DNA of 64,000 nt, from assembly GCF_014202225.1 (NCBI RefSeq), contig NZ_JACHGE010000001.1, positions 229,320 through 293,319 of the forward strand, given 5' to 3'. A program made the translations under genes and the position numbers. Below the pieces are notes generated by a model. It made no database searches, had not been told where the DNA came from, and saw nothing but the letters and a program-made list of their open reading frames with translations. This stretch comes from Algibacter amylolyticus. GTDB lineage: Bacteria; Bacteroidota; Bacteroidia; Flavobacteriales; Flavobacteriaceae. Position 1 is the first letter of the stretch. The number at the start of each line of letters is the position of its first letter. Shown one piece after another: positions 45,310 through 51,892 of this stretch.

Positions 45310-45429
45310 TAACTGTTATTATCGTGTAAAATGCAACTTACAAGCCTGTTGTGCATTTTACAAAAAAAGTGTTTTTTAATATACACTATTAAAGTTTTTT
45401 TGTGGTATAAATATTTAAATTTACCACAG

Positions 45430-47277
45430 ATGAAGATATTGTCTTTTTTATTCGTATTTCTATTTTTAGGAATGTATTGTTATGCTCAAGATGTTGAGGA
45501 ATTACCAGCCCAACCTTGGGAGGAGTTGGTTGAAATGCATTCAATTAAAAAAAATCCGATTCGTAAATGGGGAGATTCTATTAACATAAGTATTGAAGGA
45601 CTTTATAAAGCTTCTGATTCTTTAACTATTGCTAGAATAATCAAGAAATTAGATAGTCTAACAGAAACTACAACGGTTAGTTTTTCAAATACAAATAAGT
45701 CTAATTTTAAAATTAAGTTTTTAGATAAATATGTTAAAGATGAATACAACCAAAATCGCAACATTAATTCAAAAAATTGGTATAATAGCAATAAAGTACT
45801 TTATGGCTCCGACCTTTATATTTATACTTTCAAAAAAACGGATTTAGAGGTTAAAAATAGATTAGAAAACCAAATTTCAAGAATATTGGTTGACGGTTGG
45901 TTTGCCTATGCTAGAGCATTTGAAAAAAGACAAAGTATTTTCAATCCATCACTAGGTTCTTTATTAGCAGGAACTTTAAATTCCGGAGATATTTCTATTA
46001 TTAAAGAAGTCTATAAAAAGGGTTTTGAGAAACGTTTGCTACAAGCAGAACAACAATTTTCTTATGTTTTAGATAAGTTAGAAAATGATAAGATTAAAAG
46101 CAGAGATAGATCATTGTGGTGGGTAAAAAACCCCATAGCAGTCATTTTTTTACCAACTTTAGTTTTAGTACTATTTTTTATATTTCTTATCAGTAAAATT
46201 AAGCGTGCAATACAAATTAAAAAAGAACTGCTTCGGTTTGCTATTTTATCATTTGTAATATTATTATTTGCAAGTTTTGTTATTGTGTTTTGTGTGTCTT
46301 TTTTTGATTTTTTAACCATACCAGATGATTATACAAAGGTTCCAATTGTGAGAAAAGATACCATTGTATCTACAATAGCAGCATTGGTACCTTTATTTCC
46401 ATTGCTTTTTTTATTCAGGTTTATAGAATTAAAAATCCAAAAAAGCTCCCAAAACATTTTTATTAAGACCGTACTTGTTTTTCTGTCAACTGGGATATTG
46501 CCTTTTTTGTGTATTGTAATAGGCTTCTTGTTCGCTTTAAAAAGGAAAGGTGATTTACAAGGTGGATTGTTTTTTATGTCGAAAGTATTTTTGGTTTTAA
46601 TGAGTTTAGCTTCGTTAAGGGCCCTAATAAGTTATTTCATTTTTAAAGAACGTAGTTTAATTATAGAAAACGAAACCAAACTTTCTCATTTAAGAGAACT
46701 AAAATCTAAAGCAGAATTAAAATCTTTACAATCCCAAATCAATCCACATTTCCTATACAATGCTTTAAATTCCATAGCCAGTTTAGCACCAATAAATGCC
46801 AATAAAACTCAAAAAATGGTACATTCTTTATCCGATTTGTTTAAGTATTCTATAAACCGAAAAGGCAAAAAAATGAGTACTGTTAAAGACGAAATAGAGA
46901 TGGTAACATCATATTTAAATATTGAAAAAATACGTTTTGGCAACCGTTTACAATTTGATATTGAAGTTGATGAAACCTTAATGAATAATGAAATTCCTTT
47001 ATTTTTAATTCAACCCCTAGTAGAAAACGCTGTAAAGCATGGTATTTCTCAAAATGAAGGCGAAGGAACAATTCGTTTAAAAATTGAAAAAGTGGACAAT
47101 CAATTAGTAATTTCGGTAAAGGATAATGGACCAGATTTCCCAGAAGGTTTAGTAAGTGGTCATGGTTTGCAAACCGTTTATGATTTGTTGCGCTTAAGCT
47201 ATGGCAATAACGCCACTTTAAATTGGACAAACACCCCAGAAAAAACAATCACTATTACCATACCCGAAACTGTTTAA
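45430..47277 (+). CDS. LytS-type sensor histidine kinase with exported sensor region
   Basis: A 615-residue protein from the ATG at 45430 (MKILSFLFVFLFLGMYCYAQ, a clear signal peptide); the longer frame to 45331 would put 33 residues in front of it and is unlikely. After an N-terminal exported segment of about 200 residues, five or more hydrophobic helices (about 200-410) lead into a His_kinase domain with H440 in QSQINPHFLYNALNSI and an ATPase part (LIQPLVENAVKHG, DNGPDFPEGLVSGHGLQ). It is followed one base later by its response regulator. Confidence 0.9.
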   Translation: MKILSFLFVFLFLGMYCYAQDVEELPAQPWEELVEMHSIKKNPIRKWGDSINISIEGLYKASDSLTIARIIKKLDSLTETTTVSFSNTNKSNFKIKFLDKYVKDEYNQNRNINSKNWYNSNKVLYGSDLYIYTFKKTDLEVKNRLENQISRILVDGWFAYARAFEKRQSIFNPSLGSLLAGTLNSGDISIIKEVYKKGFEKRLLQAEQQFSYVLDKLENDKIKSRDRSLWWVKNPIAVIFLPTLVLVLFFIFLISKIKRAIQIKKELLRFAILSFVILLFASFVIVFCVSFFDFLTIPDDYTKVPIVRKDTIVSTIAALVPLFPLLFLFRFIELKIQKSSQNIFIKTVLVFLSTGILPFLCIVIGFLFALKRKGDLQGGLFFMSKVFLVLMSLASLRALISYFIFKERSLIIENETKLSHLRELKSKAELKSLQSQINPHFLYNALNSIASLAPINANKTQKMVHSLSDLFKYSINRKGKKMSTVKDEIEMVTSYLNIEKIRFGNRLQFDIEVDETLMNNEIPLFLIQPLVENAVKHGISQNEGEGTIRLKIEKVDNQLVISVKDNGPDFPEGLVSGHGLQTVYDLLRLSYGNNATLNWTNTPEKTITITIPETV

Positions 47278-47278
47278 A

Positions 47279-48040
47279 ATGAATAAAGCATATACCACCA
47301 TTATTATAGACGATGAAGCCCCTGCAAGATTGGGTTTAGAAAACATGCTTAAGGCATTCCCTGAAACCTTTAAGGTGATTGATACAGCGCAAAATGTAAC
47401 CGAAGCTAAAGCAAAAATAGAACAGCAACATCCAGACATTATTTTTTTGGATATAGAAATGCCAGGGCAAACAGGTTTCGATTTATTGGCACAATTAAAA
47501 ACAATTCCTATTGTGGTATTTTGCACTGCTTACGATCAATATGCTTTAGAAGCTTTTGATACCAATAGCATCGATTATTTAGTAAAACCTGTAAAAGTAG
47601 AACGTCTAAAAAAAACAGTAGAAAAGCTAAAAACGTTTAGTAAACATAAATCATCGGAAGAGATACTGACTGTTTTAAAAGAAATTTCGAACAATAAAGT
47701 GGTGAAGAAAATGACCTCAATAACTGTTAAAAAGAACGATAAACTTATTTTTATAAAATTAGAAGATATCGCTTTTTTTGAGGCCAATAATAATTATACG
47801 ACTATAGATAGTACCTCTGGGAACCAACTAAGTACCGAATCGATAGCTGCTTTAGAAAACAAATTACCTGATAATTTTATACGTATTCACAGAGGCATTA
47901 TTATTAATAAGGATTATGTTAATAACATTCAAAAATATTTTAATAGCCGACATATTATTACGCTAAACAATAAAAAACAATCGCGTTTAACATCAGGTAG
48001 AAGTTATAACAATGCTATTAAAGCGTGGATGGATTTGTAG
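47279..48040 (+). CDS. LytTR-family response regulator
   Basis: A 253-residue regulator with acceptor Asp58 (DIIFLDIEMPGQTGFD) in its receiver domain (1 to about 120) and a LytTR DNA-binding domain at about 145-250 (ITVKKNDKLIFIKLEDIAFFEANNNYTTI, FIRIHRGIIINKDYVNNIQKYFNSRHII). ATG follows the stop of the LytS gene after a single base, so they are translationally linked. The stop is six bases from that of the convergent small membrane gene. Confidence 0.95.
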   Translation: MNKAYTTIIIDDEAPARLGLENMLKAFPETFKVIDTAQNVTEAKAKIEQQHPDIIFLDIEMPGQTGFDLLAQLKTIPIVVFCTAYDQYALEAFDTNSIDYLVKPVKVERLKKTVEKLKTFSKHKSSEEILTVLKEISNNKVVKKMTSITVKKNDKLIFIKLEDIAFFEANNNYTTIDSTSGNQLSTESIAALENKLPDNFIRIHRGIIINKDYVNNIQKYFNSRHIITLNNKKQSRLTSGRSYNNAIKAWMDL

Positions 48041-48046
48041 TTTAAA

Positions 48047-48250
48047 TTAAACCATCATACTACCACAAATACCTAAACTAACAATAACATAAATAGCAGC
48101 TAAAATAAATAAAACTTTTGCTGCTTTTTTATTCTTTTTAAGTACGACAAAACCAATAATAGTAAGTAAAATAGCGGGACCAAACATAATAGCAAGGATT
48201 AAATAAATTAAACCATCTAAATTCATATTCGGACTTAATAAATGTATCAT
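48047..48250 (-). CDS. Small two-helix membrane protein, paralog of the next
   Basis: A 67-residue protein with two hydrophobic helices (about 12-36 and 46-65) separated by a short basic loop (VLKKNKKAAK). The end YVIVSLGICGSMMV closely matches that of its neighbour (YAIIGLGICGSLMF), so they are tandem paralogs. No family is recognised. It is the last gene of the unit that begins with the Lgt-like gene and includes the radical SAM gene, so a role with a membrane lipid enzyme is possible. Confidence 0.75.
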   Translation of the reverse strand: MIHLLSPNMNLDGLIYLILAIMFGPAILLTIIGFVVLKKNKKAAKVLFILAAIYVIVSLGICGSMMV

Positions 48251-48260
48251 TTTTGAAAAT

Positions 48261-48464
48261 TTAAAACATTAAACTACCGCAAATACCTAGACCAATAATA
48301 GCATAAACTGCTGTTATAATTAGTAAGACGTTAGAAGTATTTTTCTTTTTTTGTCTTATAGCTATACTAACTATTAAAAGAATAGTTGGTAGACCAAAAA
48401 CTAAAAATATAAGTAAAATTATATACCAACCTAAAGCGGCACTTTCTAATAATATATTATTCAT
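48261..48464 (-). CDS. Small two-helix membrane protein, tandem paralog
   Basis: A 67-residue protein with helices at about 12-35 and 46-64 and a basic loop (AIRQKKKNTSN) between them. Its ATG overlaps the stop codon of the radical SAM gene by one base (TAATG), which ties its translation to that enzyme. The downstream paralog follows after 10 bases. Function unknown; it might be a membrane partner or anchor. Confidence 0.78.
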   Translation of the reverse strand: MNNILLESAALGWYIILLIFLVFGLPTILLIVSIAIRQKKKNTSNVLLIITAVYAIIGLGICGSLMF

Positions 48465-49855
48465 TATACTTCATTCCTTAATTCTTCTAAACGCGCTTTC
48501 TTATCATCCCTATAAAACAAATTCATGGTTTCAAACGGGATAATTTTATTGTCTTTATCTACAATATGCACACACGATTTTTTAATAGCACGCACATCAA
48601 AGTTGTAAGCATCAATAAATTGCATGATAATAATACGGAATAAATTATCGTAACCCAAGTTTGGTGCATCAATATTAGGTAAGCAACACATAATGCTTTT
48701 TAGGTTTTCTTCAGCCACTTCAACCGAGTTCCCTGTGCTAAACAACTCAATCATTTTATCTTGTAACTGCGAGTCTTGCTCGTAAATAATTGTGTTTTTA
48801 CTGTTATCCAATAAATCGTTAGGGTTAATATAGCGCGTTAATGGGAATACTTCATTATCAAGTTTTAAGGCGTAACCCATAACCAAAGCATCGGGATTAC
48901 AAGGTACAGGAAGCAAATCGTCTGGATTAAAAATAGTGGTTTGTTCCATAATTTTTCTGCGTACTTCGGTAAGTGTCATTCTATCCGTTTCGGGGTTAAA
49001 ATTATCTAAACGGCCCGCAATTTGCGTGGGTTGTAGCGTAACACCTCGCACGCACTTTTGCTTTAAAGCATGATCTATAATTTTTCCAATTTCGCCATCA
49101 TTCAGCCCTTTTTGTAAAGTAACCACTAAGGTGGTCGATAGGTTTACAGCATTCAAATTTTTAATAGCTTGTTTACGTATATGGTTTAAATCGGCGCCAC
49201 GAAGTTCTCGTAATACGCTATTTTTAAAAGAGTCGAACTGTAAATAAATTTCAAAATCTGGAGCATAGGTTTTTAGTCTTTCCGCGAAAGCGATATCCTT
49301 TGCAATTTTAATCCCGTTAGTATTCAGCATTAAATGTCTAATGGGTAGGGATTTTGCATAATCCATAATTTCCCAAAACTGCGGGTGTATGGTAGGTTCG
49401 CCTCCCGAGATTTGTACCACATCGGGCTCTTTCTCGTTCCTAACAATGGTGTCTAACATGGCTTTTACCTCCTCTAAAGTACGATGTCTGCCATAGGTTG
49501 GCGACGAGCCCGCGTAACAGGTTGGGCAAGTTAAATTACACCTATCGGTAACCTCTACAACTGTTAGGCAACTGTGTTGTTCATGATCCGGACACAAGCC
49601 ACAATCGTAAGGGCAACCATAGTGGGTTTGTGTATTAAATTTATAGGGTGTTTCGCTAGGTTTATTGTAGTTTCTAATGTTTTTGTAATATTCAATATCG
49701 TCTGCAATAAGCACTTTACTATTTCCGTGCTCGTTACAACGCTTAAGCATATAAACATTACCGTTTTCAAACACAATTTTAGCATCAACACGCTTTAAAC
49801 ATTCGGGGCAAAGGCTTAAGGTAAAATCGTAATAGGTGTAATTTCTAACGGGCAT
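48464..49855 (-). CDS. Radical SAM protein resembling tetraether lipid synthase (Tes/MJ0619 group)
   Basis: A 463-residue enzyme. A rubredoxin-like N-terminus carries C16xxC19 and C40xxH43; then C81, C85, C88 and C96 (GCPYDCGLCPDHEQHSC) precede the SAM cluster C106xxxC110xxC113 in VTDRCNLTCPTCYAG and the ISGGEPT motif (149-155). The end (LFRIIIMQFIDAYNFDVRAIKKSCVHI ... IIPFETMNLFYRD) has the layout of the archaeal Tes family that couples lipid chains. Family placement is my reading of the motifs; the substrate is unknown. Operon with an Lgt-like gene before it and two small membrane proteins after it. Confidence 0.8.
   Translation of the reverse strand: MPVRNYTYYDFTLSLCPECLKRVDAKIVFENGNVYMLKRCNEHGNSKVLIADDIEYYKNIRNYNKPSETPYKFNTQTHYGCPYDCGLCPDHEQHSCLTVVEVTDRCNLTCPTCYAGSSPTYGRHRTLEEVKAMLDTIVRNEKEPDVVQISGGEPTIHPQFWEIMDYAKSLPIRHLMLNTNGIKIAKDIAFAERLKTYAPDFEIYLQFDSFKNSVLRELRGADLNHIRKQAIKNLNAVNLSTTLVVTLQKGLNDGEIGKIIDHALKQKCVRGVTLQPTQIAGRLDNFNPETDRMTLTEVRRKIMEQTTIFNPDDLLPVPCNPDALVMGYALKLDNEVFPLTRYINPNDLLDNSKNTIIYEQDSQLQDKMIELFSTGNSVEVAEENLKSIMCCLPNIDAPNLGYDNLFRIIIMQFIDAYNFDVRAIKKSCVHIVDKDNKIIPFETMNLFYRDDKKARLEELRNEV
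49278..49292. repeat. GC-rich near-palindrome CTTTCCGCGAAAGCG inside the radical SAM gene
   Basis: On the minus strand CGCTTTCGCGGAAAG, nearly the same as the elements at 8222 and 56488. It stays in frame with the coding sequence. Confidence 0.6.
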
Positions 49856-49878
49856 AGTTTAGTTTTTTTATGTTTTGT

Positions 49879-49953
49879 GCGTTACCACAAGGGTCGGGCT
49901 TTCACTACTCGCTCTCTGCGAGGAGCTCAAACAAACCGTTCAATCCCTAACGC
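49879..49953 (+). repeat. Dispersed flavobacterial hairpin repeat, copy D (shortest)
   Basis: GCGTTACCACAAGGGTC... at the left and CAATCCCTAACGC at the right with a short middle (75 bases in all) holding a small CTCGC/GCGAG hairpin. It lies between the Lgt-like stop codon and the radical SAM start, and is oriented against the transcription of both, unlike copies A, B and C. Confidence 0.85.
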
Positions 49954-49961
49954 TGTGTCTC

Positions 49962-50699
49962 TCAGCTAAATTTAGCTTTAACGATGGTATTCCTGTAATA
50001 CAGCAAACAAATTATGCATAATATTTGAATTACACTTAATCCAAATACATAGAACACATTGGGTTTTAAAAACTCAATAAAAAACCTAAATGAGAAATAT
50101 AGAATCATAAACCATTTAAAAAGGTCGCCATTTTTTAGTTTTTCTGTTTTTTGTACATGTTTTAAGCTAATAAATAATACGACTAAAAACACAAGTTCGT
50201 ATAAAGAAGTAGGATGCCTAAGCAAGCCGTCGCCTAAATCCATTCCTAAAAATGTAGTTGTTTGTTTGCCATAAGTAAACTCATTTATTCCAGATAGAAA
50301 ACAGCCAACTCTACCAATAAAAATGCCTAGAATAACGGGAAACGTAAACAAATCGCCCGACGATTCCGTTTCGCCAATTCGCTTTTTAGCAAACTCAACA
50401 CCCAACAAACCACCAAACAAACCGCCCATTATGGTTTTAGTGTTTAATAACTGTATTATATTTTCTTGCGAAAATTCAATCATTGGGTTTTCTAAAAAAC
50501 CAACCAGTCGCGAGCCAATTAAAGCTCCTAAAGCAGCGCCAAGTATAATAGACAACCTATTGTTACTCGAAATTACATCGGTACTTTTTCGTCTTAAAAA
50601 CACATAATACCTAAACGCTATAAAAAAAGCGAGGTATTCTAAAACCAAATGTACATTTATGTTATAACCAAACAGTTGTGGCTCGAAAGGGATTTCCAA
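49962..50699 (-). CDS. Divergent Lgt-like (prolipoprotein diacylglyceryl transferase family) membrane protein
   Basis: A 245-residue polytopic protein of the Lgt fold. It retains the R of GRVGCFLSGINEF (E. coli R143 position), RHPTSLYE and the FRFFIEFLKP segment. The catalytic His of E. coli Lgt (H103, in SFHGG) is replaced by Phe (GGLFGGLLGV), and the N of GNF by Cys. It is probably not the general lipoprotein enzyme, which should be encoded elsewhere. Transferred lipid or acceptor is unknown. First gene of the unit with the radical SAM enzyme; the frame opens with TTG at 50699. Confidence 0.75.
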   Translation of the reverse strand: MEIPFEPQLFGYNINVHLVLEYLAFFIAFRYYVFLRRKSTDVISSNNRLSIILGAALGALIGSRLVGFLENPMIEFSQENIIQLLNTKTIMGGLFGGLLGVEFAKKRIGETESSGDLFTFPVILGIFIGRVGCFLSGINEFTYGKQTTTFLGMDLGDGLLRHPTSLYELVFLVVLFISLKHVQKTEKLKNGDLFKWFMILYFSFRFFIEFLKPNVFYVFGLSVIQILCIICLLYYRNTIVKAKFS

Positions 50700-50735
50700 A
50701 AGCTTAATTTTTTATAAATATATGCGATTTTATGG

Positions 50736-50743
50736 TACATTTG
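50736..50743 (+). promoter_or_regulatory. -7 box (TACATTTG) for the T9SS gene at 50759
   Basis: TACATTTG fits TAnnTTTG and lies inside the longer open frame (from 50732), showing that the frame's first codon is not used. Transcription would begin about 50750, nine bases before the chosen ATG. Confidence 0.55.
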
Positions 50744-50758
50744 GAACTTTTAAGACCT

Positions 50759-51892
50759 ATGAAAGCTATAATTTTAATACCCTTTATTATTTTAAACGTT
50801 TTTGGAGCTTTTGCGCAAATAAGCAATGTTCAAGAAGAATTTTTGTTACCTGCTAGTTTATCTGAATCTTCGGGTATTATCTATTTTAACAATAAATTAA
50901 TTACGCATAACGATTCTGGTGGCGAAAACAAGCTTTACGAAGTAGATGTTAATACCCAGCAAATTAGCAGAACGGTTACCATAAGTAACGCTACAAATAT
51001 AGACTGGGAAGATATAACCCAAGACGATACATCCATTTTTATTGGCGACATAGGTAATAACAACGGCAACCGAACCAATTTAAAAATTTATAAAATTAGT
51101 AAAGCAGATTATACCGCTTCTACAACGGTTACTGCCGAAATTATAGCATATAGCTATGCCGATCAAACCGATTTTACAGCAAACCCTAATAACAATATTT
51201 GGGATGCCGAAGCATTGGTATCTTACAACGCCGATAATTTAATGCTGTTTACAAAAAATTGGGTAGATGGCGTTACCAAGGCATATGTAATACCTAAGCT
51301 CCCGGGTTCGCATTCGGTAAGTCCACAAGCTACAACCTTAAATAGTAACGGCCTTATTACCGGAGGAACTTATAACGAAGCTACAGGAAAACTATATTTA
51401 GTAGGTTATACCGAAATATTACAGCCTTTTATTTGGGACTGCGAAGGTTTTAGCGCTGGAAGTGTTTTTTCAGGAACCAACACCCAAACACAGTTATCAA
51501 GCTTAGTTCAAGAACAGGCTGAGGCTATCACGTTTATAGATGAAAACAGTTATTATTTAACTTCGGAGTCTTTTTCTCAATCTTTTGGAGGTTTTACGTT
51601 TACAGACGATGCTAAACTCATTTCATTTTCAACTAACGACGAGGTGTTATCAAACACAAAAACTAAAACACCCAACATGCTGGCATTATACCCTAATCCA
51701 GCAACAAATGTTTTAAATCTTAAAAGTAGCGACGCTTTTTTGTCGGTCGAAATTTTCAACTCGCAATTCAAAAAACTTTATCAAGGGCAAGAAGCGGTAA
51801 TTAACGTAGCCGCATTTAGTCCAGGTCTTTATTTTGTAAAAGTGCAATTAAACACCAATTTGTTTGTGGTTAAAAAGTTTGTAAAACAATAG
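50759..51892 (+). CDS. Secreted protein with T9SS type A sorting domain
   Basis: A 377-residue protein starting at the ATG at 50759 (MKAIILIPFIILNVFGAFAQ, a signal peptide). The body contains a repetitive beta-propeller-like sequence (SESSGIIYFNNKLITHNDSGGENKLYEVD, IDWEDITQDDTSIFIGDIGNN), reminiscent of SdiA-regulated/esterase-like propellers, without enzyme motifs I trust. The tail (about 305-377) has LYPNPATNVLNLKS...SPGLYFVKVQLN...VKKFVKQ, the type A T9SS signal. It would be secreted or surface-attached. Its substrate is unknown. Confidence 0.85.
   Translation: MKAIILIPFIILNVFGAFAQISNVQEEFLLPASLSESSGIIYFNNKLITHNDSGGENKLYEVDVNTQQISRTVTISNATNIDWEDITQDDTSIFIGDIGNNNGNRTNLKIYKISKADYTASTTVTAEIIAYSYADQTDFTANPNNNIWDAEALVSYNADNLMLFTKNWVDGVTKAYVIPKLPGSHSVSPQATTLNSNGLITGGTYNEATGKLYLVGYTEILQPFIWDCEGFSAGSVFSGTNTQTQLSSLVQEQAEAITFIDENSYYLTSESFSQSFGGFTFTDDAKLISFSTNDEVLSNTKTKTPNMLALYPNPATNVLNLKSSDAFLSVEIFNSQFKKLYQGQEAVINVAAFSPGLYFVKVQLNTNLFVVKKFVKQ

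Follow-up and report, generated by a model that had tools for sequence, protein, structure and literature searches.

A widespread gene module of an Lgt-like protein, a Tes-related radical SAM protein and small membrane proteins, examined at a locus of Algibacter amylolyticus

The locus and its radical SAM protein

The window analysed in this work is a 64,000 nucleotide stretch of the Algibacter amylolyticus genome (contig NZ_JACHGE010000001.1, positions 229,320 to 293,319), and its subject is a set of four minus-strand genes at window positions 48047-50699, for which the open reading frame (ORF) coordinates were checked. The set is composed of the gene for an Lgt-like membrane protein (49962-50699; 245 amino acids, TTG start), the gene for a radical S-adenosylmethionine (SAM) protein related to the tetraether lipid synthase Tes (48464-49855; 463 amino acids), and the genes for two small proteins of 67 amino acids with two transmembrane (TM) segments each, SM1 (48261-48464) and its paralogue SM2 (48047-48250). 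Base 48464 is common to the stop codon of the radical SAM gene and the ATG of SM1 (TAATG), which confirms the layout of four genes with a one-base overlap given in the initial annotation of this DNA. The set exemplifies a widespread module, which consists of an Lgt-like protein, a Tes-related radical SAM protein and, at most though not all of the loci open to such a search, one or more small multi-TM proteins with a lipobox-like cysteine.

The radical SAM protein carries the Pfam domains Zn_ribbon_HMPTM at the N-terminus (1e-19) and Radical_SAM (5e-24). Its best NCBIfam match is TrsS (NF045646, 329.8 bits), followed by Tes (NF045702, 286.1 bits), both below the respective equivalog cut-offs of 490 and 450 bits, and the first family beyond these two is MoaA with 56 bits. 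Of the PDB chains, GDGT-MAS/Tes (7tol) matches at 6e-69, with 30% identity, and the next chain at 7e-5. A fold search with the AlphaFold2 model of the protein (46 sequences, mean predicted local distance difference test score, pLDDT, 84.6; residues 352-398 poor) returned 7tol (2e-37) and 7tom (5e-37), with a template modelling score (TM-score) of 0.81 by query. The third match was SkfB (1e-10), 26 orders of magnitude below Tes. The profile and structure comparison with Tes which had been suggested as a check therefore gives Tes as the nearest solved structure, yet at 286 of 450 bits, and a better match to a peptide- or RNA-modifying family, named beforehand as the result to speak against the assignment, did not occur, Tes being the best at 6e-69. 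A similarity to viperin (PADLOC) was rejected as generic radical SAM likeness (7e-13 versus 6e-69 for Tes in the PDB search).

The cysteine pattern was compared with that described for GDGT-MAS (MJ0619; PMC9433317). The N-terminal element C16-x2-C19-x20-C40-x2-H43 has the exact spacing of the rubredoxin-like C9x2C12x20C33x2H36 of Tes, the N-terminal cluster C81/C85/C88 (Cx3Cx2C) is spaced as C73/C77/C80 of Tes, and the SAM cluster C106x3C110x2C113 has the spacing given for GDGT-MAS, so that the order of elements had been read correctly. The C-terminal segment, which was also thought to match Tes, does so in part: the sequence matches 7tol, but three of the four cysteines of MJ0619 in this region are replaced, since C338, C455 and C470 align with A323, S427 and E442, and C456 alone is kept, as C428. 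Which of these cysteines would be ligands in MJ0619 is suggested by the alignment, as the accessible part of the paper names only the labile Met439 (PMC9433317). In the same region Tyr459 of MJ0619 aligns with I431, and Met439 corresponds to M411, which is invariant in 20 Bacteroidota sequences. Instead of the lost cysteines the module enzyme has C319, C390 and C391, present in 36/36 and 15/15 rows of the two parts nearest to the window protein within the Lgt-linked clade described below, and C319 is found in all 81 rows of that clade. The residues C319, C390, C391 and C428 may hold a cluster, C390 and C391 lying in the poor part of the model.

The closest reading to this likeness is that the enzyme is a true Tes which joins the acyl tails of phospholipids to membrane-spanning lipids of the diabolic-acid type, the neighbouring genes being incidental. 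Sequence and fold likeness to GDGT-MAS are in its favour, as is the retention of the Met439 equivalent, which is M in 25 of the 36 rows of the main part of the clade; this residue is lost in other parts of the Lgt-linked clade, the score of 286 of 450 bits is exceeded by that of TrsS, C338, C455, C470 and Y459 are replaced, the protein falls outside the Tes branch, and its gene co-occurs with those of the Lgt-like and small proteins. We therefore regard this reading as improbable. With both curated cut-offs missed, the C-terminal cysteines lost and a position outside the Tes/TrsS branch, the protein is, judged from its sequence, not a Tes: of the Tes likeness proposed initially, the nearest relationship by sequence and fold stands and the membership falls. 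As three of the four cysteines are replaced, the C-C chemistry of Tes may not hold here, and the joining or cross-linking of membrane-lipid acyl chains foreseen for the operon is not supported as stated, nothing in the data showing cross-linking. A lipid study of soil Bacteroidetes (PMC10025309) was considered and set aside as evidence, its accessible part containing no diabolic-acid test.

The Lgt-like protein

The Lgt-like protein belongs to PF01790 (97.6 bits, cut-off 24.9) and stays with 52.3 bits below the cut-off of 118.9 of TIGR00544, the equivalog of canonical Lgt. The Lgt fold ascribed to this neighbour was borne out by its model (pLDDT 91.8), for which the E. coli Lgt structure 5azb is the sole significant fold match (3.5e-6, TM-score 0.66 by query; next E value 0.23). 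A second, canonical Lgt is encoded elsewhere in the genome and scores higher (193.7 versus 97 bits). A profile made from 32 Lgt-like sequences matches this canonical Lgt at 2.8e-13 versus 2.1e-67 for a homologue of Mycobacterium branderi. With another profile (A3) canonical-type matches lie around 1e-27 and Lgt-linked ones below 1e-60, with few between, at 1e-34 to 1e-45 (genomes G704, G709, G614 and the second copy of G584). By sequence the Lgt-like protein is thus a member of a dedicated paralogue family apart from canonical Lgt, the separation being less clear with profile A3 in some genomes.

Alignment columns were checked on the chain of E. coli Lgt (PDB 5azb, 5azc). R143 and R239, which sit at the donor lipid in E. 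coli Lgt (PMC4728403), are kept as R130 and R205, and the protein has H17 for Y26, M91 for H103 and C133 for N146. Across 40 aligned Lgt-like members the equivalents of R143, R239, G142, G154, P197 and E202 are kept in 40/40 and Y235 in 39/40, the E243 position is E or D in 39/40, and the signature glycines of Lgt are kept; the Y26 position is H in 35/40 and Y in 4/40, the H103 position is never H (0/40), and the N146 position is C in 39/40 and N in 1/40. From the residues reported as essential in E. coli Lgt (Y26, H103, R143, N146, G154 and R239; PMC13251419), the family has therefore kept R143, G154 and R239 and mostly or wholly lost Y26, H103 and N146. Loss of transfer activity cannot be concluded from this, because H103 and N146 vary among other Lgts, some having H103 replaced and distant ones having C for N146 (PMC13251419). 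The second Lgt homologue of Mycobacterium smegmatis, MSMEG_5408, has the same Y26H and N146C substitutions, by which it is likened to the family here; the accessible part of PMC13251419 describes it only as a presumed low-activity Lgt. The module gives Lgt paralogues of the Y26H/N146C type a partner and a candidate substrate.

Distribution of the gene set

In a sample of 60 genomes of the family, that of A. amylolyticus included, the radical SAM gene (full length, E < 1e-250) was found in 12, the Lgt-like gene (E < 1e-25) in the same 12, and the small protein in those 12 and in G003, an assembly 80% complete; Fisher tests, which ignore relatedness, gave 7e-13 for the two enzymes and 9e-12 for the small protein. 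In a class sample of 295 genomes the radical SAM gene is present in 18, each of which also carries the Lgt-like gene, as compared with 1 of the 277 others (7e-28, relatedness likewise ignored). This single class genome, G135 (locus L295), carries the Lgt-like gene (7e-79) without a radical SAM partner. In the 28 Bacteroidota stretches read around radical SAM matches of the family and class samples, the Lgt-like gene is without exception upstream and on the same strand (the 28th, G112, judged from coordinates), with an extra ORF between the two genes in L051, L072, L076 and L077. Two genomes of a wider phylum sample (G379 and G584) have both genes on different contigs.

Outside this phylum, 10 radical SAM homologues were found in plasmid records and eight of their stretches were read. 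An Lgt-like gene is close to the homologues of Persicobacter, two Mycobacterium and Nonomuraea. In Mycolicibacterium vanbaalenii and three haloarchaea the adjacent gene is a methyltransferase, and the stretch contains no Lgt-like gene. A pattern scan of a species-genome collection yielded at least 117 homologue stretches, 80 of which were listed and analysed; as the pattern derives mostly from Lgt-linked sequences with fixed TGC codons, it is biased towards the Lgt-linked clade and towards GC-rich genomes, and no frequency among all Tes homologues can be read from it. A same-strand Lgt-like gene is present in 63 of the 80, upstream or overlapping in 55 and downstream in 8. The other 17 have no Lgt-like gene within the block (at most 8 kb). 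Four of them (L159, L182, L194 and L199) proved linked once the genome was read and the cut-off side added (L302-L305), and for L122, L168, L169 and L192 a strong Lgt-like match (3e-64 to 6e-96) is present in the genome, outside the block. For L126, L139, L162 and L187 the genome contains Lgt matches of only 8e-27 to 3e-31, for L135 of 3e-8 and for L145 of 6e-34, and the genomes of the archaeal L124, L142 and L185 contain no Lgt-like gene.

The enzyme pair is present in Bacteroidota, Actinomycetota, Pseudomonadota, Acidobacteriota, Planctomycetota, Bacillota, Chloroflexota and Elusimicrobiota, and Arenibacter algicola and A. troitsensis are among the named carriers of the module. The small proteins go strictly with the pair in the family sample and are recognised by a motif in other phyla, at most loci and not at all of them. 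Written as L for Lgt-like, R for radical SAM and S for small protein, the gene orders are LRS (45 loci), SLR (6), RLS (6) and LSR (5), and a set which persists while its order varies is what is expected for parts of one process. Adjacency by chance, to which the recurrence of some flanking genes by local synteny only could lend colour, is refuted, since the genes co-occur and are linked in many phyla in differing orders, and its probability is negligible. One example of such a flanking gene encodes a LepA-like translation GTPase (about 600 amino acids, read by eye), which recurs downstream in flavobacteria. The initial annotation had asked for conservation of the neighbours and named its absence in related genomes as a counter-argument: the gene set co-occurs across the family, the class and beyond the phylum, so that this argument falls away, and the flavobacterial scope then assumed is right as far as it goes, the radical SAM/Lgt-like pair spanning many phyla.

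A tree of 95 radical SAM rows (quick IQ-TREE, midpoint root) divides, with a Shimodaira-Hasegawa-like approximate likelihood ratio (SH-aLRT) support of 96, into a clade of 81 rows, 71 of them Lgt-linked and 10 other, and a sister clade of 14 rows with a single Lgt-linked one (L165); because of long branches the placement of single rows is unsure. The sister clade holds MJ0619, two Tes-like proteins of the phylum Bacteroidota, a TrsS and methyltransferase-linked proteins. In distinction to the module, which shares with Tes (7tol, 7tom) the domain order, rubredoxin-like spacing, N-terminal and SAM clusters and fold, 13 of these 14 rows have no Lgt-like gene in the stretch read. Cysteines of the C319 and C390 type are shared with sister-branch rows, a likeness to TrsS which adds to the best NCBIfam score; the only sister-branch protein above 490 bits is L142, from a genome without an Lgt-like gene. 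The two Bacteroidota-phylum proteins, L112 (G404; 493.7 bits, above the Tes cut-off of 450) and L114 (G614), are Tes-type by tree position, and their genomes are possible makers of tetraether-type lipids. Downstream of the sister-branch genes L103, L105, L108, L121, L126, L139, L162 and L187 lies a methyltransferase-type gene, a second conserved pair which recurs on the haloarchaeal and Mycolicibacterium plasmids; of these proteins only L126 was scored against TrsS, with 375 of 490 bits. The radical SAM gene is split over two frames in L139, L154 and L188 and has an in-frame stop in L039, by decay or sequencing error.

One Lgt-linked member of the clade, L149, is from Paracidobacterium (Acidobacteriaceae). 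This genus is closely related to Edaphobacter, for which a Tes homologue has been presented in the literature. Published proposals, made without test, see bacterial Tes homologues as sources of branched tetraether lipids (PMC8941075, PMC11868695), the accessible parts of these papers describing no Lgt linkage. Such lipids serve as climate proxies, and if many of the bacterial Tes homologues belong to the Lgt-linked clade, a BLAST match to Tes cannot be equated with tetraether synthesis.

The small proteins and a putative lipidation pathway

SM1 and SM2 are 36% identical and have the same layout of two TM segments, with a positive loop (KKNKKAAK, RQKKKNTSN) followed by a helix ending in G-x-Cys and five further residues. 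The lipobox-like element is RQKKKNTSNVLLIITAVYAIIGLGIC in SM1 and KKNKKAAKVLFILAAIYVIVSLGIC in SM2. By the positive-inside rule the cysteine would face the periplasm, the side on which Lgt acts. A written rule was applied to the loci, which asks for net positive charge and then a hydrophobic stretch ending in [GAS]-x-C, and both proteins satisfy it. At the loci first viewed, the window included, the rule holds for 27/66 near same-strand TM ORFs (22/44 loci), and at the held-out loci for 62/139 (44/71 loci). In the controls it holds for 8/450 far ORFs, taken from either strand at all loci with no coding filter, and for 2/96 near opposite-strand ORFs. When the -2 condition is dropped, G stands at -2 in 77/107 near versus 3/22 far cases. 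At -1 both small proteins of the window have I; of the 107 near cases, 63 have I, V or L at this position and 26 have G, A or S. The small -1 residue of signal peptidase II sites is thus absent in SM1 and SM2. Four positions, I49, Y54, G60 and C62, do not vary in alignment A5, which covers 22 of 28 such ORFs of flavobacteria and their relatives, and the conserved residues lie within the TM helix. The element is absent (0/10 near TM ORFs) at 13 set-aside loci of the Tes, TrsS and methyltransferase type. At L059 (6560-7423) four tandem small G-x-Cys proteins follow one radical SAM gene, an expansion in copy number of the putative acceptor. Two family assignments for the small proteins were rejected: NF058595 ('lipo-invert') gave weak matches to SM2 and two relatives and sub-cut-off matches in 11/14 control genomes, and DUF4064 stayed below the cut-off where shown, with 10/22 members at E <= 0.01.

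A dedicated Lgt whose pocket is changed, a radical enzyme for lipid tails and a conserved thiol at the membrane face within reach of Lgt are most simply explained together if the small protein receives a modified lipid, and the lipobox-like cysteine argues for a lipidated protein and not solely for free membrane lipids. We accordingly favour, at a probability of roughly 0.4 and with the chemistry inferred, a dedicated system which attaches a lipid, possibly tail-modified, to small membrane proteins. The radical SAM enzyme would abstract a hydrogen from the alkyl chain of a lipid and alter the chain, most likely by a C-C bond between chain ends as in Tes, another change of the tail being possible. 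The Lgt-like protein, reshaped around the donor site, would then move the diacylglyceryl group of the modified lipid to the cysteine thiol at the periplasmic end of the TM helix of the small protein, although either step may come first. The small protein would stay uncut, because the residue before the cysteine is usually bulky, unlike that of a signal peptidase II site, and would end up anchored in the membrane by an unusual, covalently bound lipid. This would be a variant of lipoprotein-type lipidation; should the anchor be built by the radical step, the pathway would be of a new kind. The strongest form of the proposal, in which a second, independent bacterial lipidation pathway uses a Lgt paralogue to hang a lipid, its tails rebuilt or coupled by the radical SAM enzyme, on an uncleaved microprotein, which this archaeal-style lipid would fasten in the membrane or across it, appears to us doubtful at present.

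Several points weigh against small-protein lipidation. No biochemistry was found for any part of the module. Transfer by the Lgt-like protein is not assured, because H103 and N146, essential in E. coli Lgt, are absent; the C-terminal cysteines of MJ0619 are exchanged as described above; and the radical SAM enzyme presumably resides in the cytosol, whereas Lgt acts from the periplasm. The G-x-Cys element was first spotted by eye among the small TM ORFs from 43 loci of several phyla, the held-out set was partly unblinded, since the ORFs of seven of its loci (L067, L069, L072, L074, L075, L168 and L169) had been viewed earlier, and many held-out ORFs are flavobacterial relatives of SM1 and SM2. 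By the strict rule the motif occurs at only 66/115 loci. When ORFs are merged by BLAST, 123 near ORFs become one group, and the comparison at group level is 5/76 versus 8/409 (p = 0.04). The invariance of C62 in A5 is partly selection and G60 is restricted to G, A or S, because all rows had passed the rule. No motif-type small ORF lies beside either gene in G379 and G584, where the two are on different contigs (L293, L294, L115 and L117), nor, overlapping ORFs aside, on the Lgt strand beside the Lgt-like gene of L295-L298, L300 and L301.

An alternative is a pathway to free lipids, close to the idea of the initial annotation, with a tail-modified or membrane-spanning lipid as the joint product of the radical SAM and Lgt-like proteins. 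The Lgt-like protein would move diacylglyceryl to a small-molecule acceptor, or only present phosphatidylglycerol (PG), and the small TM proteins would be scaffolds with structural or redox cysteines. Many of the carrier genera are usually cultured as aerobes and are not known as producers of membrane-spanning lipids, which counts against such a pathway. It agrees with the Tes fold and with the lipid-binding relative GDGT-MAS, which was found with bacterial phospholipids bound (PMC9433317), with changed Lgt catalytic residues, which fit a changed acceptor, and with the proposal, without test, of bacterial Tes homologues for branched glycerol dialkyl glycerol tetraethers (brGDGTs; PMC8941075, PMC11868695). 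Bacillota produce membrane-spanning lipids, which are ascribed to a different synthase, Mss (PMC13274423). A free-lipid pathway gives no account of the position-specific G-x-Cys in the small proteins, and we consider it rather unlikely. Mss is alike in coupling lipid tails on PG-type lipids, and its model superposes on Tes; the likeness to the module enzyme is one of description, and the accessible part of the paper mentions no Lgt partner (PMC13274423).

The position of the small genes beside the enzyme, sometimes as several paralogues (four in L059), is also what a maturation system for peptides would have, similar to that of a ribosomally synthesised and post-translationally modified peptide (RiPP), in which the small TM protein would be the substrate of both enzymes, modified by the radical SAM enzyme and lipidated by the Lgt-like protein. 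The fold matches after Tes are the peptide-modifying SkfB and SuiB, but Tes is far ahead of SkfB (2e-37 versus 1e-10 by fold, 6e-69 versus 7e-5 by sequence), and the conserved small-protein residues lie in the TM helix. Lipidated RiPPs exist in the DAG-RiPPs, similar in their small gene-encoded product, in the lipidated lipobox cysteine and in an additional change by an iron enzyme; these depend, in distinction to the module, on the general lipoprotein pathway with general Lgt, signal peptidase II and a cleaved N-terminal signal, and on MNIO enzymes, with no radical SAM enzyme (PMC12636315). Peptide maturation is therefore unlikely. Lipidation of the small proteins stays the reading which we prefer, and the previously unannotated gene set is now open to experimental test. 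A search by title of the open-licence PMC literature found no publication on the Lgt/radical-SAM gene pair, which does not prove absence.

The spacer between the Lgt-like and radical SAM genes (49863-49961, minus strand) is mostly a dispersed repeat of about 80 bases, with 41 matches in the genome, itself included, and one in the window. The genes on either side of the operon lie on the opposite strand. Protein-family searches identify the product of 50732-51892 by its Por secretion tail and that of 47279-48040 as a LytTR response regulator. The latter is preceded by a sensor histidine kinase-like C-terminus, recognised by eye, and the two (45331-48040), convergent with the operon, are putative regulators of it.

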